Assembly (NCBI GenBank): GCA_964059195.1
Contig: CAXKWD010000007.1
Location: 57,909,163 to 57,973,162 of the forward strand
Direction of reading: 5' to 3'
Origin: Ectobius pallidus
Lineage: Eukaryota > Arthropoda > Insecta > Blattodea > Ectobiidae
DNA: 64,000 bases
Below are positions 7,890 to 45,659 of the stretch, piece after piece. The notes under the pieces are model-generated. The model was not told the origin of the DNA. It saw nothing but the letters and a program-made list of their open reading frames with translations, and searched no databases. Made by a program: the position numbers and the translations under genes. Position 1 is the first letter of the stretch, and each line of letters begins with the position of its first letter.

Positions 7890-8385
7890 TGTGATGTCAC
7901 GGGACATCTTCAGGAGTAGTATCACATGTAATTTTATCGATTTTATTGGTTTATTATTTTATATTGATTTTTATTTTTATTTGCTTTTATTAATTGTAGT
8001 ATGAAATGGTGAAGGTAATCTTTTTAGAGATAATCACCCAGTCTGTTGGAGAGAGGAAGTTGCATCCTGTATGTGACAGGAAGATAAGAGCAAGTCATAC
8101 GCTGTGTGTGCTAATTAAATATTATAAAAATTGTATTCCTTGTATAATCGCCCACACACATCCTACAATGTAGCAAGTTCATTGGAATCAAGTGTGATTT
8201 AATTAGTTTTATGTATGTCAACACTCATTAATTTTTGTACTAATTGACAATGTATAACAGAGGGTCAGACTGGCTAACATTTAATTTCCAATTAAAATTC
8301 TTTTGCTATGACGATTCTAAGAAATTGTCGCTTGTGATGACCCCGATCACATCCGCTATCCTTGTAGGCCGGATGTACAGATTAG

Positions 8386-8393
8386 TATATAAA
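8386..8393 (+). promoter_or_regulatory. LTR TATA box
   Basis: TATATAAA followed by CCCCTCC. Transcription would start about 30 bases on, near the CTCAGAGTACG at 8417. The identical site in the 3' LTR is at 18431-18438. Confidence 0.65.
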
Positions 8394-8562
8394 CCCCTCC
8401 TGAGATCATATGATAACTCAGAGTACGATTGAGAGCTAGCATCAGATACAGATAGTACTGGCCCCGGCGGGAGGAAGCAGCAGAGATATCTCCCCGGGAC
8501 AGAGAGAACGTCTGTACCTACCCTCAGCCAAGAGATGGACAGATTGCTTTTCTATTGTATTT

Positions 8563-8568
8563 GTAAGT
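8563..8568 (+). promoter_or_regulatory. Candidate sense 5' splice site in the LTR transcript
   Basis: GTAAGT followed by AG, downstream of the predicted start site. It could be the donor for spliced sense RNAs, with acceptors at 9730 (long pyrimidine run, TTTAACAG) or 15464 (GTGTTACAG, just before env). This is inference from consensus only. Confidence 0.35.
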
Positions 8569-8795
8569 AGATAACTGTTAGCTCAGTCTGAACTGCCCTC
8601 GCGAGTAGCTATAATAAATATTATACTCATTATAATATAGAAAGAATATAGTTGCTTTGTAAGAGTTTTAGCTTTAAAGAATATTAACAGTTTGTACGAG
8701 TAGAACTAACTCAAGCAATGATTTCAGAAGAAATCTGTTTTATTTGTCTTTTAATCATTTTTATTTTAAACGTGTGTTATTTTATGTTTATAGTT

Positions 8796-8801
8796 AATAA
8801 A
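8796..8801 (+). terminator. LTR polyadenylation signal
   Basis: AATAAA in the 3' half of the LTR, followed by TATTGTACTTGTGATAACG. It is repeated at 18841-18846 in the 3' LTR, where it would end the genomic RNA. Confidence 0.55.
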
Positions 8802-8912
8802 TATTGTACTTGTGATAACGGGGAATATTAATCTACATACCCGATCATTCCTAGAAGTTAAGGCAATCAGGGGCGCTCGGCTAATTTCCTGTCCCTTTCC
8901 TCAGGCATGACA

Positions 8913-9181: not shown

Positions 9182-9643
9182 ATGGCGTTGTGTTGTTGGA
9201 AACGTCGAGATCCCTGTGATAAAGAGTTTACACTTCTCTTAGTGAGAGTACTTACTGTGTCGAATACGTTAGCCTTGCAGGGATCCACTAAGTATGCCAA
9301 GGAATTAGTGGAAAGATTTTTCAAGAAATATACAGATATAGATATATCTAGGATACAGGAGCACGAACATAAATTTAGAGGACTTTTAGCTGAGTCTAGG
9401 TTAGATATTGCTTTCGAGGGTCGTCCTAAACACTTTAAAGTTCCCATCCAGAAGATTTATAAATACAAACACGGAGAAGGTTTGGCTGTAATTTTTTAAT
9501 TAAAAGTGAGAATTGTAATTAGATATATACCACCCACACATGATTATGACACTTTGGAGATAGAGAGGACAGACTATCTGCCTATGTATAGTACTGCTAA
9601 TTCTAGGAGTGAGGATATGAGGGTTTCATTTTTACATCAGTAA
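9182..9643 (+). CDS. Leader ORF upstream of gag, unknown function, one in-frame TAA
   Basis: ATG at 9182 opens 105 codons to a TAA at 9497. The same frame then stays open for 47 more codons to the TAA at 9641. Both parts look protein-like: charged and helical (YAKELVERFFKKYTDIDISR), then polar (YIPPTHDYDTLEIERTDYL). The most economical reading is a gene of about 153 codons carrying one nonsense change, or stop readthrough. I recognise no family. It lies in the errantivirus leader, before gag, where such elements normally have no gene. The final stop overlaps a sense AATAAA. A chance ORF cannot be excluded. Confidence 0.5.
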
Positions 9644-9720
9644 ATAAAGCGACCACAGTTTCGGTTAATTTTATTTGTTTATTTTGTTACATAGATGTGT
9701 GTTTTTTTTTCTGTTTTATT
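9641..9720. terminator. Convergent polyadenylation signals
   Basis: A sense AATAAA lies at 9643-9648, overlapping the stop of the leader ORF. Antisense AATAAA (TTTATT on the plus strand) lies at 9715-9720, 9678-9683 and 9670-9675, starting 3 bases after the stop of the antisense exon. The block therefore looks like a shared end for a sense leader transcript and an antisense transcript. Confidence 0.5.
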
Positions 9721-9723
9721 TTT

Positions 9724-9993
9724 TTAACAGCGGTAGGGCCCGCACCGAACCGCCCGCTCATTTTCCACGGTGACCCGCCGCATCCCTTCGGCGGACAGCA
9801 CCCGGAAGGAGAAAGCCTCCTCCGGGACGCAATCCGCCTGAAGGAAGGGCCAGTGAGGGAGCCTCCGCCAGGGCACGTGGGGCAGGGAGATCACCACCGG
9901 GTAGGTGACCTCCTCCACCCGTCGACACCGGCGGCAGACGCGGCGCCGTACCACCTCTAGGTACGTGGTTCTGTCACCCAGAGTTGGCATCAA
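9724..9993 (-). CDS. Antisense gene, exon 2: Cys/Arg-rich protein, unknown
   Basis: Minus strand. A consensus acceptor (TTTCTTGACTTTTTCAG, AG at 9995-9994) precedes an 89-codon open frame ending TAA at 9726-9724. Features: TYLEVVRRRVCRRCRRVEE with a C-x2-C, further Cys near the end, Arg/Val-rich throughout. The plus-strand block 9731-9960 is about 70% GC by hand count, against clearly AT-rich neighbours. Third codon positions in this frame are almost all G or C, which supports minus-strand coding. The frame joins exon 1 (17546-17779) in phase 0. No known family recognised. An alternative sense reading (9697-9960) has no ATG in the block and a weaker third-position bias. Confidence 0.6.
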   Translation of the reverse strand: MMPTLGDRTTYLEVVRRRVCRRCRRVEEVTYPVVISLPHVPWRRLPHWPFLQADCVPEEAFSFRVLSAEGMRRVTVENERAVRCGPYRC

Positions 9994-10016
9994 CTGAAAA
10001 AGTCAAGAAATTAAAG
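9994..10016 (-). promoter_or_regulatory. Antisense 3' splice site
   Basis: Read on the minus strand: CTTTAATTTCTTGACTTTTTCAG, a pyrimidine-rich tract ending in CAG, with TTTAAT and TTGAC as possible branch points. It lies only 17 bases from the sense gag ATG at 10034. Confidence 0.6.
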
Positions 10017-10033
10017 TACATTAGATAAGTGTT

Positions 10034-11017
10034 ATGGCGCAAGCACAAGAAACTAGGGTGAAGGATCTGGCTGTGGCTGGATGGATACAAGGATGGGATC
10101 CTAAATGCGGTAGACCGGTTGCGAATTTTTTGAGAAATATAGAGACTGCAGCCGAGTTGGGTAATTTAACTGATAAAGATAAAGTGCGATTAGTTATTAT
10201 GAAGGTGTTAGGAGCTGCTCAGACATTTGTTGATACACACCCCGAATTGCAAACAGAAAATACGTTCACGAGGTTAAAAGAGATATTTAAGGAACGATTT
10301 AAAGAGCAGCACACTGATTTTTTTTATTACTCGCAGTTGCAGGCAGCGACACAGGGAAGGGATGAGTCGATTGCAGACTTTGCTGACCGTCTGCGTCGTT
10401 TAAGTAGGCAAACTATTAGAACAGTCGATGATGAGACTGAACAAAGAGCAATTAATGAAGAAGCCGAGAAGAGGTTACTAGCTAGTTTTATTAACGGGTT
10501 AAAAGGGAACCCTGGGTTGCAAGTAAAGTATCAGATGCCCGAGACAATAGATAAAGCGATAAAGATAGCCACCATGGCAGCCCAGGCAGAAACAGAGGTA
10601 GATAAAACGCGCAGTCAGGCTCACGCGCAAGTATTTAGTAATGAAAGTCGAGGCGTACAGTCGCAAAACAAAGGTGGTGGTCCTAGGTCAGCGGGACGAG
10701 GACATTGGGGCAACAATAACAATAATAATAATAGACAAGGTTATAGGAATAACTGGAGTGAAAGAAACGCTAGTGGCAGTAATGCACAGCAAAGATGGCT
10801 TTCACGTGATCCTGGTCCCAAAGGATCGAGTCCCGCGCCAGGAGCGCGAGGGGGTAACGACGGTTACCGGAGCGCGAGTAGTCGTAGGGGTTACCAATGT
10901 TATAACTGTCGGGAGATGGGGCATATAGCTCAATATTGTAAGAAAAGGAGAGAGGGGCGCCAAGGTTTAAACGGGGTAGGGGGGACCAAAACAACCCCGT
11001 CGGTCTTCCCGAAGTAG
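10034..11017 (+). CDS. gag: Gag of the errantivirus-like element
   Basis: 327 codons, intact. The N-terminal half is a retrotransposon Gag capsid-like region (GWIQGWDPKCGRPVANFLR; FADRLRRLSRQ). After a Gly/Asn-rich stretch with a poly-Asn run (about residues 224-231) there is a CCHC zinc knuckle at about residues 289-302 (CYNCREMGHIAQYC). The protein packages the RNA genome in virus-like particles. It ends TAG at 11015; the protease lies in another frame, so a ribosomal frameshift is expected. The ATG at 10034 lies just beyond the antisense splice acceptor. Confidence 0.9.
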   Translation: MAQAQETRVKDLAVAGWIQGWDPKCGRPVANFLRNIETAAELGNLTDKDKVRLVIMKVLGAAQTFVDTHPELQTENTFTRLKEIFKERFKEQHTDFFYYSQLQAATQGRDESIADFADRLRRLSRQTIRTVDDETEQRAINEEAEKRLLASFINGLKGNPGLQVKYQMPETIDKAIKIATMAAQAETEVDKTRSQAHAQVFSNESRGVQSQNKGGGPRSAGRGHWGNNNNNNNRQGYRNNWSERNASGSNAQQRWLSRDPGPKGSSPAPGARGGNDGYRSASSRRGYQCYNCREMGHIAQYCKKRREGRQGLNGVGGTKTTPSVFPK

Positions 11018-12306
11018 AGCCGAAACACGAAGTCGTGCCAGCAGCGATTAGTCCGGCGACGGGACTGCTGCTAGAAGTAGATATAGAGGGAACGTAGCGT
11101 AAGCTGTTAGCGGATACCGGAACCGCTGTGTCATTGTTAAAACCGACAGTAAGTTCTGCACGACTTGAAGAAAATAGTATAACGGCTAGGGGTATAACTG
11201 GAACAGATTTAGAGCTGGACGGTGTACAGAAAGTCACGCTTTATATTAACAAGAGGTCCTATGAACATGAATTTTTAGTGAGTGACTTGAGTTCCCCTGG
11301 AGACGGGATACTGGGTGACGACTTCCTACGAAGGGTTGGAGCGCAACTAGACTTGCAAACTAACTGCCTCTTGGTGGGAGGCCAGCAAATTCCTCTGATA
11401 TGTAGCTCGCTGGGTGCTGTCTCGCCTGTCGACGAGCGAGATGGAATGGGCTGTAGGGAACCCTCTGCTCAGGGATTGATCACCCCGCTTCAGGCATTGG
11501 ACCCTACAGATGGCCGCACTGAGCCCGAGGAACCTGGTCTGGATAACTTTCCAGGTTGGTTTGCATCGGTCATCCTAACGGAAATGGTTGCATGCTCTCC
11601 ATTTGTTGGGACGATAGTCCGTGCTAGGGTTGTTGGGCGCAACATCCCTGCAGATTCCCCTTGTGCAGTGTTCGAACCGGTAGGAGCCCTACTACCAGGT
11701 TTATATTCACCGCGCGCTATTGTGAAATTGTGTAAGGATCCTTTTGGTATCCCGGGGAATTGCTCCCTGTCGACAGAAAGTCCCCAATGAGTTCCCCCAG
11801 AGCCTCGTGAAATTCCGGAGGACGAATGGCATCCCAGTACTCAGTCTTCCAGTGGGCGGTGGTCCGCGTCCGGAACAGAAAAGTTAATGGGCGAGACGAT
11901 CGCACAAAGGTGTTCTTGTGGGACACAAGCGGTTCAGCCTCTCAACCCCGTAGGAGAGAGCTCGAACCAAGGACGCCTTGGGAAGGATCATGCGCAGTTC
12001 CTTGGCAAACAGAAATTTTGCGCAGAGAGTAAACTAGAAAATCTGTCCCAGCAGGAGTATGTGAAGTTAAATAAGATGTATACAATTCCAGTTAGTATAG
12101 TGAATCTCTCAGAGGAAGAGATTGTACTGAATAAAGGCACTAGATTAAGAGAAATTGAGGCAATCTCCGAGGAAGGTTTCGTAAATGGTATCTTGCAAGT
12201 AGACGATACAGAGTTATCTGAGGAAGAGGAAAATGCCTCTGAACAATTTAATGATTACCTAGTAGAGAAATTAAGCCATTTGGGCCAGGAAGACAATGAA
12301 ATCTAG
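11017..12306 (+). pseudogene. pro: Protease and protease-RT linker
   Basis: Frame 1. The aspartic protease active site ADTGTA lies at 11110-11127, with the flap/ILGDDFL region near 11305-11330. The frame then continues through a linker that ends in a beta-rich segment (VSIVNLSEEEIVLNKGTRL) usual before gypsy RT. In-frame stops interrupt it: TAG at 11095, just before the active site, and TGA at 11788. At 12304 the frame meets TAG, and the RT frame takes over from about 12303. The protease would normally mature Gag and Pol. Confidence 0.75.
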
Positions 12307-15300
12307 CCGGAGTATTAAGTAAATATCAGCACTTATTTTATAAAGAAGGCAGTATGGAAATAGGCTGCACAAGTAAGATAAAACATGAGATAGATACAGG
12401 TGATGCAAAACCATTTAGAAAAAGGCCGTACAGAGTTCCACATGCACTAAAGCCGATAATGGAAGAGCAAGTAAGAGATATGCTGAAAAAGGGTATCATA
12501 TCCGAGAGTAATTCGCCTTACAATAGTCCCATTTTAATGGTACCTAAAAAGTCACGTGATGGCAAACCAAAATGGCGCCTGTGTGTCGACTTGAGGACCC
12601 TGAACGCTCAGACGAAGATAGATGCGTACCAGATTCCAAATATCACTGATATTTTAGATTCGTTAGGCCAGAGTAAGGTATTTTCAGTTTTAGATATGGC
12701 CAGTGGGTATCTGCAGATAGAGATAGCAGAAAAAGACCGAGAAAAGACCGCTTTCAGCACCGAAAGTGGGCATTTTCATTTCAATAAACTCTGTTTTGGT
12801 TTATGTAACGCCCCTGCAACGTATTCCCGTTGCATGGACTCTATTCTTATGGGTTTGAAGGAAATAGACGTTCTTGCGTACCTTGATGATTTTATTTTAT
12901 TTACGCCAGATATACGCTCGCATGCTCAGAAACTGGAGCAAGTATTCCAAAGATTGGAAGGAGCTAACTTCAAGATTCAACCGGAAAAATGCCAGTTTGC
13001 TGTGGATCAAGTAGAATACTTGGGACACATTGTTACTAGTGATGGGTTAAAACCAGACCCTAATAAAGTTAAAGCAATGAGAGAATATCCAGTACCTACT
13101 AGTGTTAAGGACATACGATCTTTTGTAGGGTTGGCTTCGTACTATCGGAGGCATGTCCCTAATTTTGCGGAAATAGCACGTCCGTTAACTGCTTTAACGC
13201 GTAAAAACACAGCTTTTGTGTGGGGAGTCGCTCAGCAAGAGGCGTTCGAGACGCTGAAGGAAATACTCAGCACCGAACCTCTGTTAGCGTACCCAGACTT
13301 CTCTAAAGTCTTTATTGTGACCAGTGACGCGTCGAAGACGGCCATTGGATCTGTGTTGTCACAGGAATATGATGGGCACGAGAGGCCTATAGCCTATTGC
13401 TCGAGGCAACTCAATAAAGCCGAAATTAATTATAGTGTGACAGAGGAGGAGCTGGCAGCAGTTATTTTTGCAACTAAACAGTTTAGATGTTACATATATG
13501 GGCATCCGTTTATTTTAGTAACTGACCATGCAGCTTTGAGGTGGATGTTGAATTTAAAAGACCCCAGTTCGAGGCTGGTTAGATGGAGTTTACGTTTAGC
13601 AGAATTCGATTTCACTGTTGTGCATCGCGCAGGCCGGAAATTGACCCAAGCTGACGCCTTGAGCCGTCACGTAGCGATGACGTTTTGTGAGAAAAATTTG
13701 AGTACAGAAGCTATATTGCAAGCCCAGAAAAGCGATGAGTTTTGTATGGAATACCAAAGGAAAAAGAAAAGGTATCCAGATTTCAGAGTGAATAACGAAG
13801 GTTTATTGTTTAAACAAAGCAAACCGAGTATATCGGGTTACGCAATAGTTGTTCCGAAAGAATTGGTTCCAGTAATATTACAATATTATCACGATACACC
13901 TTTCGCTGGACACCAAGGTGTTCATAGAACAGTAGCACGTATTTCACGGAAATACTGGTGGAATACGTTACGAAAGGATGTAGAAGAGTTTATCAGTACA
14001 TGTGATAAGTGTGCGAGAAGAAAATCAGGAACCGCGGGAATCGTGCCTTTAGCAGAACCGCCGCAGGCATCGGAATTCCTAGAGATTTTATCTACAGATT
14101 TCGTAGGAGTATTACCTTCTACAGAGTTGGGAAATCGTTATGTGTTAACGTTTGTAGATCATTTCACACGATATTGTTTTGCAATACCAGTCCCGAGCCA
14201 AAGTGCAGAAATAGTAGCTAAAGAGTTTGTGTCGAAAATAGTGTTAGAATTTGGCTCGCCGAAAGCGTAGATCTCTGATCAAGGCCCACAGTTTTTATCG
14301 AGATTATTTCAAGAAGTGTGTAAGCTACTGAAAGTAACAAAGTTACAAACAACTGCGTATCACCCGCAGAGTAATGGAATTTGTGAGAGGTTTCACAAAA
14401 CATTGGCCGATATGGTCTCGCATTTCGTATCTAAAGACGCGAGACGATGGGACTAGTACGTACCGTATGCGGTAATGGCATACCGGAGTACACCACATTC
14501 AGTGACGGGATATAGTCCGCACTACTTAGTGTTTGGTAGAGAGTTAAGGCTATCAATGGAAGACGACTGTAGAATGTCGAAAGAGGAACCCAACGATTAT
14601 CAGATGCACATAAAAGTGCTGGCCGAGAGATTGAAAACGGCATATGAATCAGTGCAAGCAGCCAATAAGAGAGGTCAGGAAACCTCCAAGAAGTACTACG
14701 ATAGAGGTAAAAGGATGAGAGAATTTCAAATAAGCGAGTATGTGTACCTCTATAATCCTATAGCGAAGAAAGGGCCGACTAGGAAATTTGCTTATAGTTG
14801 GCAAGGACCTTTTAAAATTGTAGATCGGACCTCAGATGTAACATATAGATTAGAAAAAGATGATGGAAGTACAGTAGTAGTGCATGTAAACCGGCTAAAA
14901 GAGTGCAAAGTGCCTATAACGACGGAAAAGTATCCGTTGGTAAAGAAAGGTAGTATTAGGGCTACCGAGAGAACCGAGAGAAACCATTTAAAGCTAGATA
15001 CCATTGTGGAAGAACCCGAAGAAAATGAAATGGCGGAATGTTCGAAGCCATTCAGATGTAGTGAGTCAGAGGACATAGGTGATGTACAAGATACATCGAA
15101 CGAATCATTAAGTTTACCTGAGTCAGGAGATGAGTGGTTACCACCTACTCGACCGAGAGCTGGTACATCACCCGAAGTAGTAACTGACAGATATGAATTA
15201 CGCTCGAGAGTGAGAGCGGAAGAGGTTAGTGAAAATAGAAATAATGTCCATGGAGACAATGTAAATAGTAGTAATGTGCATGGAGGCAATGTAAATAGAA

Positions 15301-15413
15301 ATAATGTACGTAGAGATAATGTAAATGTAGATGTAGAAATACGAAGAGGTAGAAATAATGTAGAATTCCCCCAGCGTAGATATGAGTTACGTTCACGTAC
15401 TAGATCAGAATAA
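12303..15413 (+). pseudogene. pol: Pol: reverse transcriptase, RNase H, integrase
   Basis: Frame 0 is open from about 12303 to 14267. RT motifs include LCVDLRTLNAQT and the catalytic YLDD at 12879-12890. RNase H shows VTSDASKTAIGSV, TEEELAAV and VTDHAALRW. The integrase has an HHCC finger (HQGVHRTVARIS ... CDKCARR) and core aspartates in STDFVG and SDQGPQF, with the E region near SNGICERFH. TAG stops occur in frame at 14268 and 14454. The C-terminal part (14475-15413) has a GPF/Y-like module (WQGPFKIVDR), then a tail of Asn-Val repeats between two YELRSR motifs. Apart from the stops the protein is well preserved. Confidence 0.9.
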
Positions 15414-15439
15414 AGTAAAATTTAGGAGTAAGAAATGCT

Positions 15440-17447
15440 TACTCGTTCTTCGTATGTGTTACAGGTTTATTGGTGACGAGACACGCCACGCAAGCAGACG
15501 AAGTAAAACTGGATAAGGGGATGGTGTTTGTGAAAGACAGAGACATTTTATTAACAGGCGATAAGTGGACCGTAATAATGGATATACATTTAAATGATTA
15601 CGAGAGGTTAATCGAAGGTGTAAATACTGCTATAGATGAGTTAAGAATAGGATTTAAGAATTTTGTGCATTTCACAAGAGATGAAGCGGATAGTAGCATT
15701 TATTTAGGAGAGTTAAATAGATTACAGAATTTAACCAAAGAAATGGAAGTTGATATTGCAGCTTTTAAAGCGTTGATTCCACAGAATATACGAAAAGCCA
15801 GTAGAGGAAAAAGAGGATTAATAGATGGAGTAGGTTATACGTTGAGCTATTTGTTTGGTACACTCGATCAAAAAGACCTCGGAAGGATAAATCAAGTAGT
15901 AACAGATTTAAAGGGATTCGCTACTAATATGGTTCACACAACCGAAAAGCAAGTAACGTATATTAAACAGTTAGATAAAAGAGTTAGTCAAAATTCTATA
16001 TTGATAGTAAAAATGGCTAAAGATTTAGATAATTTAATACGGAGTTCGATAAAGTCCGAAGCAGACAAGCAGAGAAGATATATGAAGTTTGCAACGCAAA
16101 TAAAGAAATAGAAGTTACTATTTACATATGAAAGCACAGTTAATGCAGTTGCAGGAGAGTTTAGATATGACTTCCATAGGTAAATTGTCTACAACGTTGA
16201 TACCTCCGCATAATTTTACGAAGATATTAAGTGAGATTTCTTTGAATCTACCGGAAAGTACAAGTATGTTAGCCACGCCTACGCCTGAGTCAACATATTT
16301 ATACTACCAGTTAGCAGAAGTGCATGCTGCTGCCTTTCCCGATACGATTAGACTTTTTATTGAAATACCTCTTAAAGGAAATGATAGATATTTTGAAGTT
16401 TTTCATGCGCATTCTTTGCCTTATTTTGAAGCAGGATTAAATCAGTTTATATCGATAAATGTTCCGAGATTTACTTACTTGGCAGTTTCCGAGAGCCGAC
16501 AGTTATTTACAATCTTAACTGAGAATGATTTGAATTTATGTAAAGAAACTATGTTTACAATCTGCCCAGCTGATTATGTATTATATGATGAAAGGTCAGA
16601 CAATTGTTTAATAAATTTGTATTTGGGAAGAACAGACCGAGTTCAGAAAACCTGTCAAAGAATAATAGAGAGTCCGCAGTTCGCACCTAGGTGGATAAGA
16701 TCTAAGAAAAGTGACTACTGGATTTATAGTCTAAGTGCACCCCTTACAGTAACTAAGAAATGTCAGACGGGGACCCCGCCGGTGGCCAATACTGTCACAG
16801 AGACCCTGTCGCTGAACGGCACAGGCCTGTTTAACAATACTTTTAATTGTTTCATTTACGGGGACACTTTTCAATTACTTCCACATTCTATGGGTCGAAC
16901 TGTGTACGAACTAAGAACGACAGCAATAGTGATTCCTAAAATAGACACTGTTTTCACACCAAGGGAATTAGAAATGTTCCAGATTAACTGGGAACAGCGA
17001 ACCATGGACGCCAGCATCGAAGCCGCGACCAACATGGACCTCGCTGGAACACGGCCAAGAATTGACTTGAGCCAGTTACATCGATCCCTGGACCGACTGC
17101 AACACGAACCAGAGCTAACAGATCACCAGACTCTTTCAGTGTCAATAGCTGCTATTTTAGTAGCCTTGGTAATAATCACTGTGTTAATTTATGTGTTTAA
17201 GAACAGGTTGACGAAACTGATACGGAAATATAAATTACGGCAGAGGAAAGAAGAAAAAGAAGAATCACTAGAGATAGCAAACCGCACTCGACGAGGAAAA
17301 CCACGCACTTCAGTTCCTGTATTAGAGGCCATGGAATTAATCAGTAAGGAAGTGCAAGAGGAAGTGTCGGTGGAAAGAGCACCTTCTTTCCATGTAACGC
17401 CTATAGAAGAGTCTAATCGGGAAGCAGTGATGTATGCAAAGCACTAG
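15440..17447 (+). pseudogene. env: Env glycoprotein of errantivirus type, broken
   Basis: Two frames (15470-16111 and 16128-17447) with a frame change at about 16111-16128. A hydrophobic stretch just upstream of 15490 looks like a signal peptide, but no in-frame ATG precedes it; a nearby ATG at 15435 is in another frame. A splice acceptor (GTGTTACAG, 15456-15464) precedes the gene, consistent with env expression from spliced RNA. A furin-type site RGKR (15803-15814) is followed by a GLIDGVG fusion-peptide-like sequence, as in gypsy Env and baculovirus F proteins. A membrane anchor lies near 17140-17205, with a basic cytoplasmic tail. The product would be an envelope fusion protein; this copy is disrupted. 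Confidence 0.88.
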
Positions 17448-17539
17448 GAAGGAAATCTAGAATTTTATGTAAACATTTGTAACATTTATTTTATTGTATG
17501 TATAATGAATTTTAATGTGCATATAGGTCAAGTCTACTA

Positions 17540-17545
17540 ACTTAC
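17540..17545 (-). promoter_or_regulatory. Antisense 5' splice site
   Basis: Minus strand reads CTAGAG|GTAAGT: a full consensus donor directly after an in-frame GAG codon (phase 0). It lies 93 bases beyond the env stop, so the antisense intron begins just outside the sense genes. Confidence 0.6.
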
Positions 17546-17866
17546 CTCTAGATGTAAGAAGGGCCTGAAAGGGTGGTCCGGCTCGTGCGAAGGCCCCGCT
17601 TCAGGTGGCTGTCCCAGTGGACCCTCTGCGACCCCGTGAAGTACAGGTGGGGGAGACTGCACGAGTGGCGGAGGCGTCGAGACGTCAGGCACCCCCGGCG
17701 ACGCCGTAGGGACTACAGGCGACCCCGGTGGGCTCACAGTGTCGTCGTCGTAAATATTATACACAGGACGCTGAGCCATGACGGATAGTAGACGTACAGA
17801 AGAATGTGCGAATAAGTGCGATCCGCTCTCTAATATACTGGGTATGAGAAAGTTATTACAGAGCAT
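17546..17866 (-). CDS. Antisense gene, exon 1: proline-rich, unknown
   Basis: Minus strand. The GC-rich part begins at an ATG at 17779 (MAQRPVYNIYDDDTV) and gives 78 codons to the splice donor. An in-frame upstream ATG at 17866 would add 29 residues, but that stretch has ordinary AT-rich composition, so 17779 is preferred. The product is Pro/Gly/Val-rich with an acidic DDD near the start, and looks disordered. Plus-strand bases 17551-17750 are about 67% GC by hand count. Joined to exon 2 it predicts 167 residues (196 from the upstream ATG). It would be transcribed from or near the 3' LTR. No homolog recognised. If unspliced, the frame stops two codons after the donor. Confidence 0.55.
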
Positions 17867-17925
17867 TTCCGTGCTGGACGAAAGGCCTAAAACGATCTTC
17901 TTCCAGAAGACGTTTTACTTTAGTG

Positions 17926-17934
17926 CCAAGGGAG
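17926..17934 (+). other. Polypurine tract
   Basis: AAGGGAG immediately precedes the 3' LTR (TGTGATG at 17935), the expected plus-strand primer position. Confidence 0.7.
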
Positions 17935-18957
17935 TGTGATGTCACGGGACATCTTCAGGAGTAGTATCACATGTAATTTTATCGATTTTATTGGTTTATT
18001 ATTTTATATTGATTTTTATTTTTATTTGCTTTTATTAATTGTAGTATGAAATGGTGAAGGTAATCTTTTTAGATATAATCACCCAGTCTGTTGGAGAGAG
18101 GAAGTTGCATCCTGTATGTGACAGGAAGATAAGAGCAAGTCATACGCTGTGTGTGCTAATTAAATATTATAAAAATTGTATTCCTTGTATAATCGCCCAC
18201 ACACATCCTACAATGTAGCAAGTTCATTGGAATCAAGTGTGATTTAATTAGTTTTATGTATGTCAACACTCATTAATTTTTGTACTAATTGACAATGTAT
18301 AACAGAGGGTCAGACTGGCTAACATTTAATTTCCAATTAAAATTCTTTTGCTATGACGATTCTAAGAAATTGTCGCTTGTGATGACCCCGATCACATCCG
18401 CTATCCTTGTAGGCCGGATGTACAGATTAGTATATAAACCCCTCCTGAGATCATATGATAACTCAGAGTACGATTGAGAGCTAGCATCAGATACAGATAG
18501 TACTGGCCCCGGCGGGAGGAAGCAGCAGAGATATCACCCCGGGACAGAGAGAACGTCTGTACCTACCCTCAGCCAAGAGATGGACAGATTGCTTTTCTAT
18601 TGTATTTGTAAGTAGATAACTGTTAGCTCAGTCTGAACTGCCCTCGCGAGTAGCTATAATAAATATTATACTCATTATAATATAGAAAGAATATAGTTGC
18701 TTTGTAAGAGTTTTAGCTTTAAAGAATATTAACAGTTTGTACGAGTAGAACTAACTCAAGCAATGATTTCAGAAGAAATCTGTTTTATTTGTCTATTAAT
18801 CATTTTTATTTTAAACGTGTGTTATTTTATGTTTATAGTTAATAAATATTGTACTTGTGATAACGGGGAATATTAATCTACATACCCGATCATTCCTAGA
18901 GGTTAAGGCAATCAGGGGCGCTCGGCTAATTTCCTGTCCCTTTCCTCAGGCATGACA
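17935..18957 (+). repeat. 3' LTR of the errantivirus-like element
   Basis: 1023 bp, same length as the 5' LTR. Visible differences: GATATAA for GAGATAA, ATATCACC for ATATCTCC, GTCTATT for GTCTTTT, and AGAGGTT for AGAAGTT. The last base is followed by GCGG and the resumed RT gene of the outer element. Confidence 0.95.
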
Positions 18958-43251: not shown

Positions 43252-44128
43252 TCAATTGTCCGTGTCATAAGAAACACTTCCGTTGTAAGTGGAATGCGCA
43301 CAATTAGAAAGGGACAAAAAATTGGTATTATGAAAATGCTTATTAATCCAATCCACAGGTATTTCATACGGGGACTCTTCTATAACATCCACATGGGGAA
43401 GAGGAAAGTGTATAACATGTGTATTCTTTTTTGTTCTCTTAATGATCCCCAACCACTCATCACCCAAGTCACCGTCAAATCGGTTCAAAACGAAATCTTT
43501 ATTACATCCGATATTCCAAGCTTCGCACACTTTTCTCTTAATAACATCGTCCTCAACCTTTAAGATCTTCAAAGCACCCATACGGTGATTATTCTCGATC
43601 AAATGTTGGCTAAGACCAGTAGACGTTTTCCTACTTCTAATATCTCTCTCGTGCTCACGAAGTCTGATTTTAAAGGATCTACCTGTTTCACCAATATAAA
43701 ACTTATTACATTCCAAGCATGAGATTGAATATACCCCTGGATATTCCATTTGGTCCTTATTTCTGCCGAACCTTTTATATTCGGAAAAAATCTTGTGAAT
43801 GGTTCTATTGGTTTTGTAGGCAGGAACCAAATCGAACTTACGAAAAACCTTCTCGTAACGTTCGCTCATGGCTGGGTGGTAGGTCATACCCACATACTTG
43901 GTATTAGGATCCTTAATCTCACCATCTCTATTCATAAAATGTTTTTCAGCCTCCTTCCATATCATATCCATTCTTCTTTCATCAAAACCATTAATCCTGG
44001 CTAAACGAAAAATCTCCCTTTTTTCAGAATATAAATCATTGTAGTTGTTACATAACTTTAAGGCTCTAATGGCGAAGTTACGCCAAACGTTGTGTTTAAT
44101 CCTATGGTGGTGTGCGGATTTCTTATGA
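43252..44128 (-). pseudogene. Inverted second copy of the PLE C-terminus with GIY-YIG
   Basis: Minus strand, open from the arm edge to 43252. Same protein as the last ~290 residues of the plus copy, with only a few replacements (for example H/D, Q/R, E/D). It lacks the RT, so it is not an independent gene. Confidence 0.85.
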
Positions 44129-45659
44129 TTTCATGTACTGTCATCCGGCGTATGGTTTAGCAAAACTGTTGGTTGAAAGATTAATGGGTATACAAAAAAG
44201 AACGAAATGGTCAATCGGCAACTCTTTTGAAGCAAGAGAAATTTTAGATAATGTTGTATACAACAAAGATCTTCGTATGTTCAGTTTGGACGTCGTTTCT
44301 TTGTATCCTAGTGTCCCCAGAGCCCAAGCAGGAGAATATCTCTTTAGATGGCTTATTGAGTTGGGGGTGGATAGTATTGTTGCTAATGAGTACCTTAGGT
44401 GGTTTAATGTTTGTACTGATTACAACATTTTTCAGTTTAATGGTATTATCTATAAACAAAACGAAGGCTTGGACATGGGGAACCCCGTGTCTGGTATTGT
44501 TTCGGACATTTTTCTTTTCTTCATGGAGAGATCCATTATTAGCAAATATGTGGACAGCATTGCTGTATATATTCGCTATGTTGATGATATCTTGGTTATT
44601 TCTAGGAGTGATATTTCTGGACAGCTTTTGGAGGATTTTAATGGTTTTAACAGCAGAATGAAGTTTACTATTGAAAAATCCGAGAATAATACTCTAAATT
44701 TCCTGGACTTAAGAATTGTCCTAGAATATCCGAGGATTAAATTGGGCATTTATAGGAAAAATAATAAAGGTGAATTATATATTCATAAGAAATCCGCACA
44801 CCACCATAGGATTAAACACAACGTTTGGCGTAACTTCGCCATTAGAGCCTTAAAGTTATGTAACAACTACAATGATTTATATTCTGAAAAAAGGGAGATT
44901 TTTCGTTTAGCCAGGATTAATGGTTTTGATGAAAGAAGAATGGATATGATATGGAAGGAGGCTGAAAAACATTTTATGAATAGAGATGGTGAGATTAAGG
45001 ATCCTAATACCAAGTATGTGGGTATGACCTACCACCCAGCCATGAGCGAACGTTACGAGAAGGTTTTTCGTAAGTTCGATTTGGTTCCTGCCTACAAAAC
45101 CAATAGAACCATTGACAAGATTTTTTCCGAATATAAAAGGTTCGGCAGAAATAAGGACCGAATGGAATATCCAGGGGTATATTCAATCTCATGCTTGGAT
45201 TGTAATAAGTTTTATATTGGTGAAACAGGTAGATCCTTTAAAATCAGACTTCGTGAGCACGAGAGAGATATTAGAAGTAGGAAAACGTCTACTGGTCTTA
45301 GCCAACATTTGATCGAGAATAATCACCGTATGGGTGCTTTGAAGATCTTAAAGGTTGAGGACGATGTTATTAAGAGAAAAGTGTGCGAAGCTTGGAATAT
45401 CGGATGTAATAAAGATTTCGTTTTGAACCGATTTGACGGTGACTTGGGTGATGAGTGGTTGGGGATCATTAAGAGAACAAAAAAGAATACACATGTTATA
45501 CACTTTCCTCTTCCCCATGTGGATGTTATAGAAGAGTCCCCGTATGAAATACCTGTGGATTGGATTAATAAGCATTTTCGTAATACCAATTTTTTGTCCC
45601 TTTCTAATTGTGCGCATTCCACTTACAACGGAAGTGTTTCTTATGACACGGACAATTGA
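44112..45659 (+). CDS. Penelope-like RT + GIY-YIG protein, 5'-truncated but open
   Basis: 515 codons. RT blocks: WSIGNSFEAREILD, SLDVVSLYPSVPRA, GLDMGNPVSGIVSD and the catalytic YVDD (about residue 157). TIEKSENNTLNFLDLRI and KKSAHHHRIKHNVWRNFAIRA-type segments (residues ~195-255) are typical. GIY-YIG nuclease: PGVYSISCLDCNKFYIGETGR (split here as GVYSISC and FYIGETGR), about residues 355-376. The first RT motifs are missing and the first few codons come from the inverted arm. An intact frame through 500 codons suggests recent activity of the family. It would copy its own RNA at nicked DNA ends. Confidence 0.88.
   Translation: MRISYDFMYCHPAYGLAKLLVERLMGIQKRTKWSIGNSFEAREILDNVVYNKDLRMFSLDVVSLYPSVPRAQAGEYLFRWLIELGVDSIVANEYLRWFNVCTDYNIFQFNGIIYKQNEGLDMGNPVSGIVSDIFLFFMERSIISKYVDSIAVYIRYVDDILVISRSDISGQLLEDFNGFNSRMKFTIEKSENNTLNFLDLRIVLEYPRIKLGIYRKNNKGELYIHKKSAHHHRIKHNVWRNFAIRALKLCNNYNDLYSEKREIFRLARINGFDERRMDMIWKEAEKHFMNRDGEIKDPNTKYVGMTYHPAMSERYEKVFRKFDLVPAYKTNRTIDKIFSEYKRFGRNKDRMEYPGVYSISCLDCNKFYIGETGRSFKIRLREHERDIRSRKTSTGLSQHLIENNHRMGALKILKVEDDVIKRKVCEAWNIGCNKDFVLNRFDGDLGDEWLGIIKRTKKNTHVIHFPLPHVDVIEESPYEIPVDWINKHFRNTNFLSLSNCAHSTYNGSVSYDTDN

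Follow-up and report, generated by a model that had tools for sequence, protein, structure and literature searches.

Evidence for a conserved antisense gene with a predicted intron made of gag-pol-env in a Ty3/gypsy provirus of Ectobius pallidus

Introduction

Retroviral antisense open reading frames (ORFs) have been summarised as small and situated in the 3' region of the genome (PMC8622228; this and the other papers below are cited from excerpts). The antisense gene hbz of human T-cell leukemia virus type 1 (HTLV-1) begins in R and U5 of the 3' long terminal repeat (LTR) and gives rise to both spliced and unspliced RNAs (PMC10186651; for the two kinds of RNA also PMC8622228). Among plant Ty3/gypsy elements, the aORF-3R genes (maize Grande gene23, rice RIRE2 and Silene Retand) are antisense ORFs lying between pol and the 3' LTR (PMC7264820, PMC11963269), and gene23 of Grande is driven by a promoter of its own and yields a product located in the nucleus (PMC7264820). 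As for insects, non-coding antisense RNAs have been described in Drosophila micropia (PMC7264820), and a spliced env is known in the env-F group of Ty3/gypsy elements (PMC12992720). Here we analyse a 64-kb stretch of DNA, hereafter the window, from Ectobius pallidus (assembly GCA_964059195.1, 2.12 Gb; contig CAXKWD010000007.1), which, to judge from LTRs, Pfam matches and homologues of reverse transcriptase (RT), houses an env-bearing, errantivirus-like Ty3/gypsy provirus.

We propose that this provirus carries a conserved antisense protein gene whose intron would be made of gag, pol and env, a reading to which we assign a probability of roughly 0.88. A preliminary description of the same DNA had pointed to a minus-strand ATG followed by 78 open codons, a splice donor, a gap of 7552 nt, an acceptor, a second exon of 89 codons, a TAA and an AATAAA, all of which we found where it had placed them (Table 1).

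Results

Two antisense exons at the edges of gag-pol-env

The predicted intron encloses the sense coding region closely, since the ATG of gag (10034) and the stop of env (17447) lie only 40 and 98 nt inside its edges, as the preliminary description had noted in general terms. Its donor is the sole AG/GTRAGT on the minus strand of 9724-17935, and its acceptor is TTTCTTGACTTTTTCAG, ending at 9994 (minus strand). The frame of exon 1 stays open further upstream, to an ATG at 17866 (minus strand); read without splicing, it stops two codons beyond the donor in the window and five codons beyond it in most other copies shown. Further TATA-like sites are present inside the LTR, and the best-placed one, at 17837, lies outside it.

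Table 1. Positions of the antisense gene, the provirus and the sense leader gene in the window
Feature	Position	Strand	Remarks
Antisense exon 1	17546..17779	-	ATG at 17779, 78 open codons
Splice donor GTAAGT	17540..17545	-	CTAGAG/GTAAGT; donor GT begins at 17545
Predicted intron	9994..17545	-	7552 nt; gag, pol and env lie within it on the other strand
Antisense exon 2	9724..9993	-	89 codons and TAA (9726-9724); phase 0 with exon 1
AATAAA of the antisense gene	9715..9720	-	three bases past the TAA
Branch-point-like site CTAAT	10020..10024	-	ends 26 nt upstream of exon 2
TATA-like site TATATTA	17831..17837	-	58 nt ahead of ATG 17779; outside the LTR
5' LTR	7890..8912	+	1023 bp, TG...CA ends
3' LTR	17935..18957	+	1023 bp, TG...CA ends
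gag	10034..11017	+	Pfam Retrotrans_gag, E 4.4e-8; zinc knuckle slightly under Pfam cut-off
pol	11098..15413	+	interrupted in the window copy by a stop codon in frame at 11790, a change of frame near 12300 and a break at 14270-14457
env	15419..17447	+	baculovirus-F type; frame change near 16104-16128 in the window copy
Sense leader ORF	9182..9499	+	between 5' LTR and gag; 105 codons, stop 9497-9499 in the window copy
AATAAA of the sense leader gene	9643..9648	+	convergent with the antisense poly(A) signal

A scan for two-exon genes at full stringency (a perfect AG/GTRAGT donor, a pyrimidine-rich acceptor, at least 60 + 60 open codons and a poly(A) signal no more than 40 nt from the stop) recovered the antisense gene as the only candidate on both strands of the 64 kb and none in 100 locally shuffled windows (0/100), in agreement with the earlier judgement that these signals had little chance of lining up in phase. 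Permitting one donor mismatch added one candidate (2264-1399, minus strand), and with a poly(A) signal no longer required either, the total came to six candidates, three of which are other partners for the same exon 1. The codon-position bias of the exons was matched by only 4/4000 shuffles for exon 1 and 17/4000 for exon 2, and the two exons are the top two 240-nt tiles of the 64 kb in G+C content (GC; 0.679 and 0.637, the next being 0.571).

Conservation of exon 2

A genome search with positions 9600-10000 of the window gave at least 43 matches at 67-100% identity, and we examined 37 copies of exon 2, namely 17 first copies (the window, L002-L008, L010 and L021-L028) and 20 further ones (L029-L048). 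The acceptor is present in all 37, and exon 2 is intact in 30, comprising 11 of the first 17 and 19 of the further 20; the others carry frameshifts (L005, L006), early stops (L007, L008, L022, L026) or an in-frame internal deletion (L047). The 19 intact further copies encode one identical exon-2 protein of 92 residues, and by their sequences L029-L048 together with most of L049-L060 form a young, nearly identical subfamily. A CTAAY motif stands upstream of the acceptor in 14 of the first 17 copies (not in L008, L010 or L021), and A[AT]TAAA occurs within 110 nt of the exon-2 stop in 28 of the 31 other copies parsed with at least 80 codons, in an AT-rich region where it is partly expected by chance. 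At L010:153-425 (plus strand), near other copies on contig C12, lies a more diverged relative of exon 2, with about 50% amino-acid identity to the window.

Variation among the 11 intact first copies, which reach down to 40% protein identity, follows the antisense codons: across 86 codon columns, 59 first, 46 second and 83 third positions are variable, and the antisense exon-2 frame is the only one of the six that is stop-free in all 11. Synonymous sites are saturated in 16 of the 55 pairs, and 38 of the 39 computable ones have a ratio of nonsynonymous to synonymous divergence (dN/dS) of 0.06-0.35, the remaining pair, with three differences only, standing at 0.66; the selection of intact copies for this estimate excludes stops by design, not amino-acid changes. 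The first methionine of exon 2 comes only at residue 45 or later in L023, L024, L025, L027 and L028 (at residue 10 in the young family), which suggests that exon 2 requires an upstream in-phase exon, and exon 1 is the only upstream candidate at full stringency.

Exon 1, the donor and the intron length

Of 28 loci fetched at the distance expected for exon 1, 18 contain it, 16 in full and two in part (L012 and L063). In the 16 full copies and the window, the exon runs from its ATG to a phase-0 donor over 60, 67, 78 or 80 codons, so that its length has changed in multiples of three. Seven representatives gave a dN/dS of 0.11-0.34 in 20 of 21 pairs (0.11-0.27 for pairs with a dS above 1); the one other pair, L020 and L062, has a dS of 0 and a dN of 0.023. 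All 52 listed matches of the exon-1 protein in the whole genome are free of internal stops. The context of the TATA-like site, CCCAGTATATTAG, is identical in 11 of 12 aligned rows, the window included; L063 has lost the region. Stops or frameshifts in other copies, together with a lack of constraint, had been named in the preliminary description as the outcome that would speak against the gene; with 30/37 copies of exon 2 intact and dN/dS well below 1 in both exons, the copies point the other way.

Splice sites are also found in pairs at a nearly constant distance. An exact-pattern scan of the genome returned 39 donors and 46 acceptors (reversed controls, 0), and the acceptor of the window, which departs from the pattern at one base, was entered manually for the donor-acceptor pairing. 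A same-strand acceptor lies within 20 kb of 34 of the 39 donors, at 7488-7588 nt in 31 cases, at 7897 nt in one and at about 14 kb in two.

Allele divergence and a recombinant element

Compared with the window in 40-nt bins, L023, L024, L025, L027, L028 and L031 have an identity of 0.90-1.00 in the leader (9304-9623) and of only 0.50-0.68 across 9744-9983; from 10024 on, identity is again 0.90-1.00 in L024, L025, L027, L028 and L031, L023 being unaligned in gag from 10064. A similar drop is seen at the other end in L019, L020, L062 and L049, where identity to the window is 0.78-1.00 in env (17106-17505), 0.42-0.80 in 17546-17825 and 0.77-1.00 in the LTR bins to 18265. On these comparisons, which took in 9304-10303 at one end and 17106-18305, with L009 and L061 as well, at the other, most of the difference between allele classes falls within the antisense exons and short untranslated regions. 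The elements are otherwise about 95% identical (in the leader, the start of gag, the end of env and much of the LTR), whereas the synonymous sites of their antisense alleles are close to saturation. The synonymous distances agree: dS to the window in exon 2 is 1.24 for L025, 1.22 for L024, 1.16 for L028 and 1.29 for L023, against 0.05, 0.08, 0.07 and 0.12, respectively, in the sense leader gene described below, whereas in the window's own allele class the values for exon 2 and the leader are 0.28 and 0.06 (L003) or 0.09 and 0.09 (L002). The high dS of the exons next to the low dS of their flanks in the diverged classes suggests that the exons have a genealogy different from that of the flanks.

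One element appears to record such an exchange. L061 and the exon 2 of L027 belong to the same element, being on the same strand and 7575 nt apart. At the sites that separate class A (L009) from class B (L049), L061 agrees with A at 70 and with B at 5 in exon 1, with A at none and B at 19 in U3, and with A at 4 and B at 11 in the end of env and the start of the intron. By these counts this element, the one covered by the analysis, is a recombinant for exon 1, with a class-A exon in flanks of the other class. L063, which we had at first assigned to the L023 element as its exon 1, proved to be oriented the other way and plays no part in the mosaic argument. The exon divergence might still stem from a local hot spot of mutation.

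The predicted protein

Exon 1 encodes an acidic, proline-rich product (isoelectric point 4.6, 26% Pro) with a conserved core, D[DE]DT.SPP.SP.VPTAS, and a conserved end, PDHP[FYH]RPF. The product of exon 2 is basic and rich in arginine and cysteine (isoelectric point 9.6, with 16 Arg and 5 Cys in the window), and in its family A2, a 12-member alignment, C20, C55, R43, R44, W48 and P49 are invariant and C23 and C84 nearly so. The bZIP domain that defines HBZ had no Pfam match above chance, and Pfam found no TRP28 domain of the Retand type; a match to Med16_C (E 0.1, in 3 of the 12 members) is under the cut-off and was judged to be chance.

The provirus and its surroundings

The two LTRs are 99.5% identical over 1028 aligned nt, and the provirus is flanked by GGGG before the 5' LTR and GCGG after the 3' LTR, a possible target-site duplication with three of four bases alike. 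The integrase part of pol matches Pfam Integrase_p58_C (E 6.1e-11), and RT was recognised through homologues. In a large set of proteins, the top relative of pol has 58% identity across the entire 638-residue query, and partial relatives reach 65% among the 120 listed; scans for the DNA loci of these protein relatives found none. The protease-RT stretch of pol (11250-11999, plus strand) has a GC of 0.52-0.57, above that of the remaining pol, and 11791-12306 (plus strand) has no match in Pfam. The second frame of env matches Pfam Baculo_F with an E of 1e-16, and the first with one of 4e-4, under the cut-off. Env starts without an ATG (15419-15470, plus strand), and TTCGTATGTGTTACAG, ending near 15464 (plus strand), resembles an acceptor for a spliced env RNA. 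Judging from the flanks, we read the provirus as probably inserted into an older gypsy-like pol frame on the minus strand. Elsewhere in the window, a frame that ends in a GIY-YIG-like part occurs twice in 43252-45659, in similar copies on opposite strands. One of them also has a reverse-transcriptase-like part, and by eye they look Penelope-like.

A second accessory gene in the sense leader

The element appears from its copies to have a second, conserved accessory gene, the sense leader ORF. Its frame resumes for 47 codons past the stop, to a TAA at 9641-9643 that overlaps an AATAAA, and the sense and antisense poly(A) signals face each other about 70 bp apart. The sequence CTTTATTTACTG, the reverse complement of the leader AATAAA with its flanks, is found in 9 of the 10 rows shown, the window included. 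Matches to the leader ORF occur in 34 of 35 loci, 30 with 92-97% amino-acid identity across the portion present and four lower (L006, L007, L008 and L021). Changes from the window at first, second and third codon positions number 35, 5 and 61 in the ORF and 31, 7 and 35 in the tail, counts that are non-independent, all being taken against the window. We had considered the leader stop as a conserved readthrough site and dropped the idea, because 27 of 34 copies have a sense codon at that position (five have a stop, and two are otherwise and out of register). The leader product has no relative in Pfam, PHROGs or viral contigs.

Discussion

On the evidence of its sequence conservation, it is very likely that the antisense gene is real and old, and we regard its conservation in other copies as the decisive support. 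Several observations weigh against this reading. Our analysis covers genome sequence, and the spliced exon junction, searched there as an exact 20-letter pattern, had no match (reversed control, 0), so that no mRNA retrocopy backs the splicing. The state of individual copies has to be reckoned with as well: 7 of the 37 copies of exon 2 are damaged, no exon 1 turned up at 10 of the 28 loci taken at its expected distance, the donor of L054 is altered (GTACGT), and 5 of the 39 donors have no acceptor among the matches listed; copies on small contigs (C16, C66, C125, C356 and C372) may moreover duplicate others, and these copy counts are not counts of independent events. Neither exon product has a known domain (Pfam, PHROGs) or, among 5.8 billion proteins, a relative beyond the genome of Ectobius pallidus, and exon 2 found none in IMG/VR (searched with the single sequence and the family), GTDB contigs, phage records or PDB. 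A single-sequence fold of exon 2 alone was unreliable (predicted local distance difference test score 47) and was not used. Finally, an open frame by itself is unremarkable at such GC, 556/4000 shuffles of exon 1 and 398/4000 of exon 2 being open, and the antisense RNA of exon 2 has a strong fold (z -4.84 against shuffles).

The last two points lend themselves to other explanations. The GC-rich blocks might not be genes at all, and their open frames might be due to chance or to a structured sense RNA, for packaging or as an internal ribosome entry site, whose minus strand is open by accident. Besides the frequency of open frames, this could draw on the sense RNA of exon 2, which folds somewhat better than its shuffles (z -2.83); exon 1, however, has no excess folding in the sense RNA (z 0.36), and we reject the idea that sense structure gave rise to both GC blocks. 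It would also be left unexplained why the antisense strand is constrained at the level of codons and why, in diverged copies, length changes keep the frame and splice sites keep phase 0, and with the substitution pattern so strongly contrary we give this explanation next to no credence. That the antisense product works as an RNA (a decoy, double-stranded RNA or a precursor of PIWI-interacting RNAs), its protein being incidental, would suit the structured antisense RNA of exon 2 and has a precedent in the micropia antisense RNAs, but it has to contend with strong protein-level constraint in both exons and with the splicing itself, which would strip the RNA of nearly all its complementarity; we consider it very improbable.

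Both exons might also be coding and yet belong to separate genes, or be joined to other exons, without being spliced to each other across gag-pol-env. In favour of this, exon 1 has three other in-phase acceptors within the intron, each with an open frame, once the demand for a poly(A) signal is lifted. Against this stand the early stop of the unspliced exon 1, the several copies of exon 2 without a methionine before residue 45, the agreement of donor and acceptor phases in the parsed copies and the clustering of their distances at 7.5-7.6 kb, which together leave this reading with very little chance. Recent capture of a passenger gene, which we likewise rejected as scarcely probable, fits badly with at least three allele classes of exon 2 that differ by a synonymous divergence above 1 and are all constrained.

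We return to a single antisense gene spliced across gag-pol-env, and suggest how it might be expressed. RNA polymerase II would most likely start at a TATA promoter between exon 1 and the 3' LTR, and the transcript would run leftward across env, pol and gag and be polyadenylated in the 5' leader. Splicing would cut out about 7.55 kb, the entire gag-pol-env complement, and join the acidic proline-rich N-terminal part to the basic arginine- and cysteine-rich C-terminal part in a protein of about 167 residues, and the spliced RNA would be left with hardly any sequence complementary to the genomic RNA. An intron on the sense strand would be lost from the packaged RNA, whereas an antisense intron is invisible to reverse transcription. 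The intron may thus survive reverse transcription of the sense genome because the gene is antisense.

An acidic, proline-rich arm followed by a basic, cysteine-bearing domain would suit a small nuclear regulator. The role that we favour, by analogy and at somewhat less than even odds, is that of a nuclear accessory regulator that might act on the element's own RNA or on host silencing, similar to HBZ in logic, not in descent. A bolder idea, to which we give a lower probability, is that the antisense gene might be a swappable identity module of the element. Its protein would then control copy number or exclude superinfection among subfamilies that share a genome, or would take part in an arms race against silencing by the host. 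Rarity would give new alleles an advantage, and recombination, for which the mature spliced antisense mRNA might be the template, would move little beyond the exons. The immunity regions of phages show a similar pattern, with a diverged module in like flanks.

If our reading is correct, animal Ty3/gypsy elements can keep an intron-bearing regulatory gene on the strand that is never packaged. Arthropod endogenous retroviruses would gain a candidate regulator as well as a second conserved gene, in the sense direction, ahead of gag, and the diverged antisense alleles would make conflict between elements, or between element and host, directly testable.

How does this gene compare with known systems? 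In its LTRs, Ty3-type gag, RT, integrase and baculovirus-F-like env, the provirus resembles insect env-F Ty3/gypsy endogenous retroviruses such as ZAM and gypsy, for which the excerpts of PMC12992720 and PMC13172572 do not mention an antisense protein gene; our literature search likewise returned none in an arthropod env-bearing gypsy element among the matches listed, which were excerpts too. With the plant aORF-3R genes it shares an antisense accessory ORF in a Ty3/gypsy element. Their position between pol and the 3' LTR fits exon 1 alone, exon 2 being between the 5' LTR and gag; an element-spanning intron is not described in the excerpts of PMC7264820 and PMC11963269, and the TRP28 domain of Retand is absent here. 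As for HTLV-1 HBZ, the parallel drawn in the preliminary description stands as one of logic, that of a spliced antisense accessory gene, and fails for descent, for position and for the bZIP domain. Like the antisense genes of deltaretroviruses, including HBZ, the gene described here would be a conserved minus-strand accessory gene of a provirus, read from the 3' end; unlike HBZ, it has its second exon in the 5' leader, a predicted intron that comprises all of gag-pol-env, its best promoter candidate outside the LTR, and neither a bZIP nor another domain. A few retroviruses and plant gypsy elements are already known to have antisense protein genes, and what would be new, on our reading of the sequence, is one that is spliced and maintained by selection in many copies of an animal Ty3/gypsy element, with the whole sense coding region as its intron.

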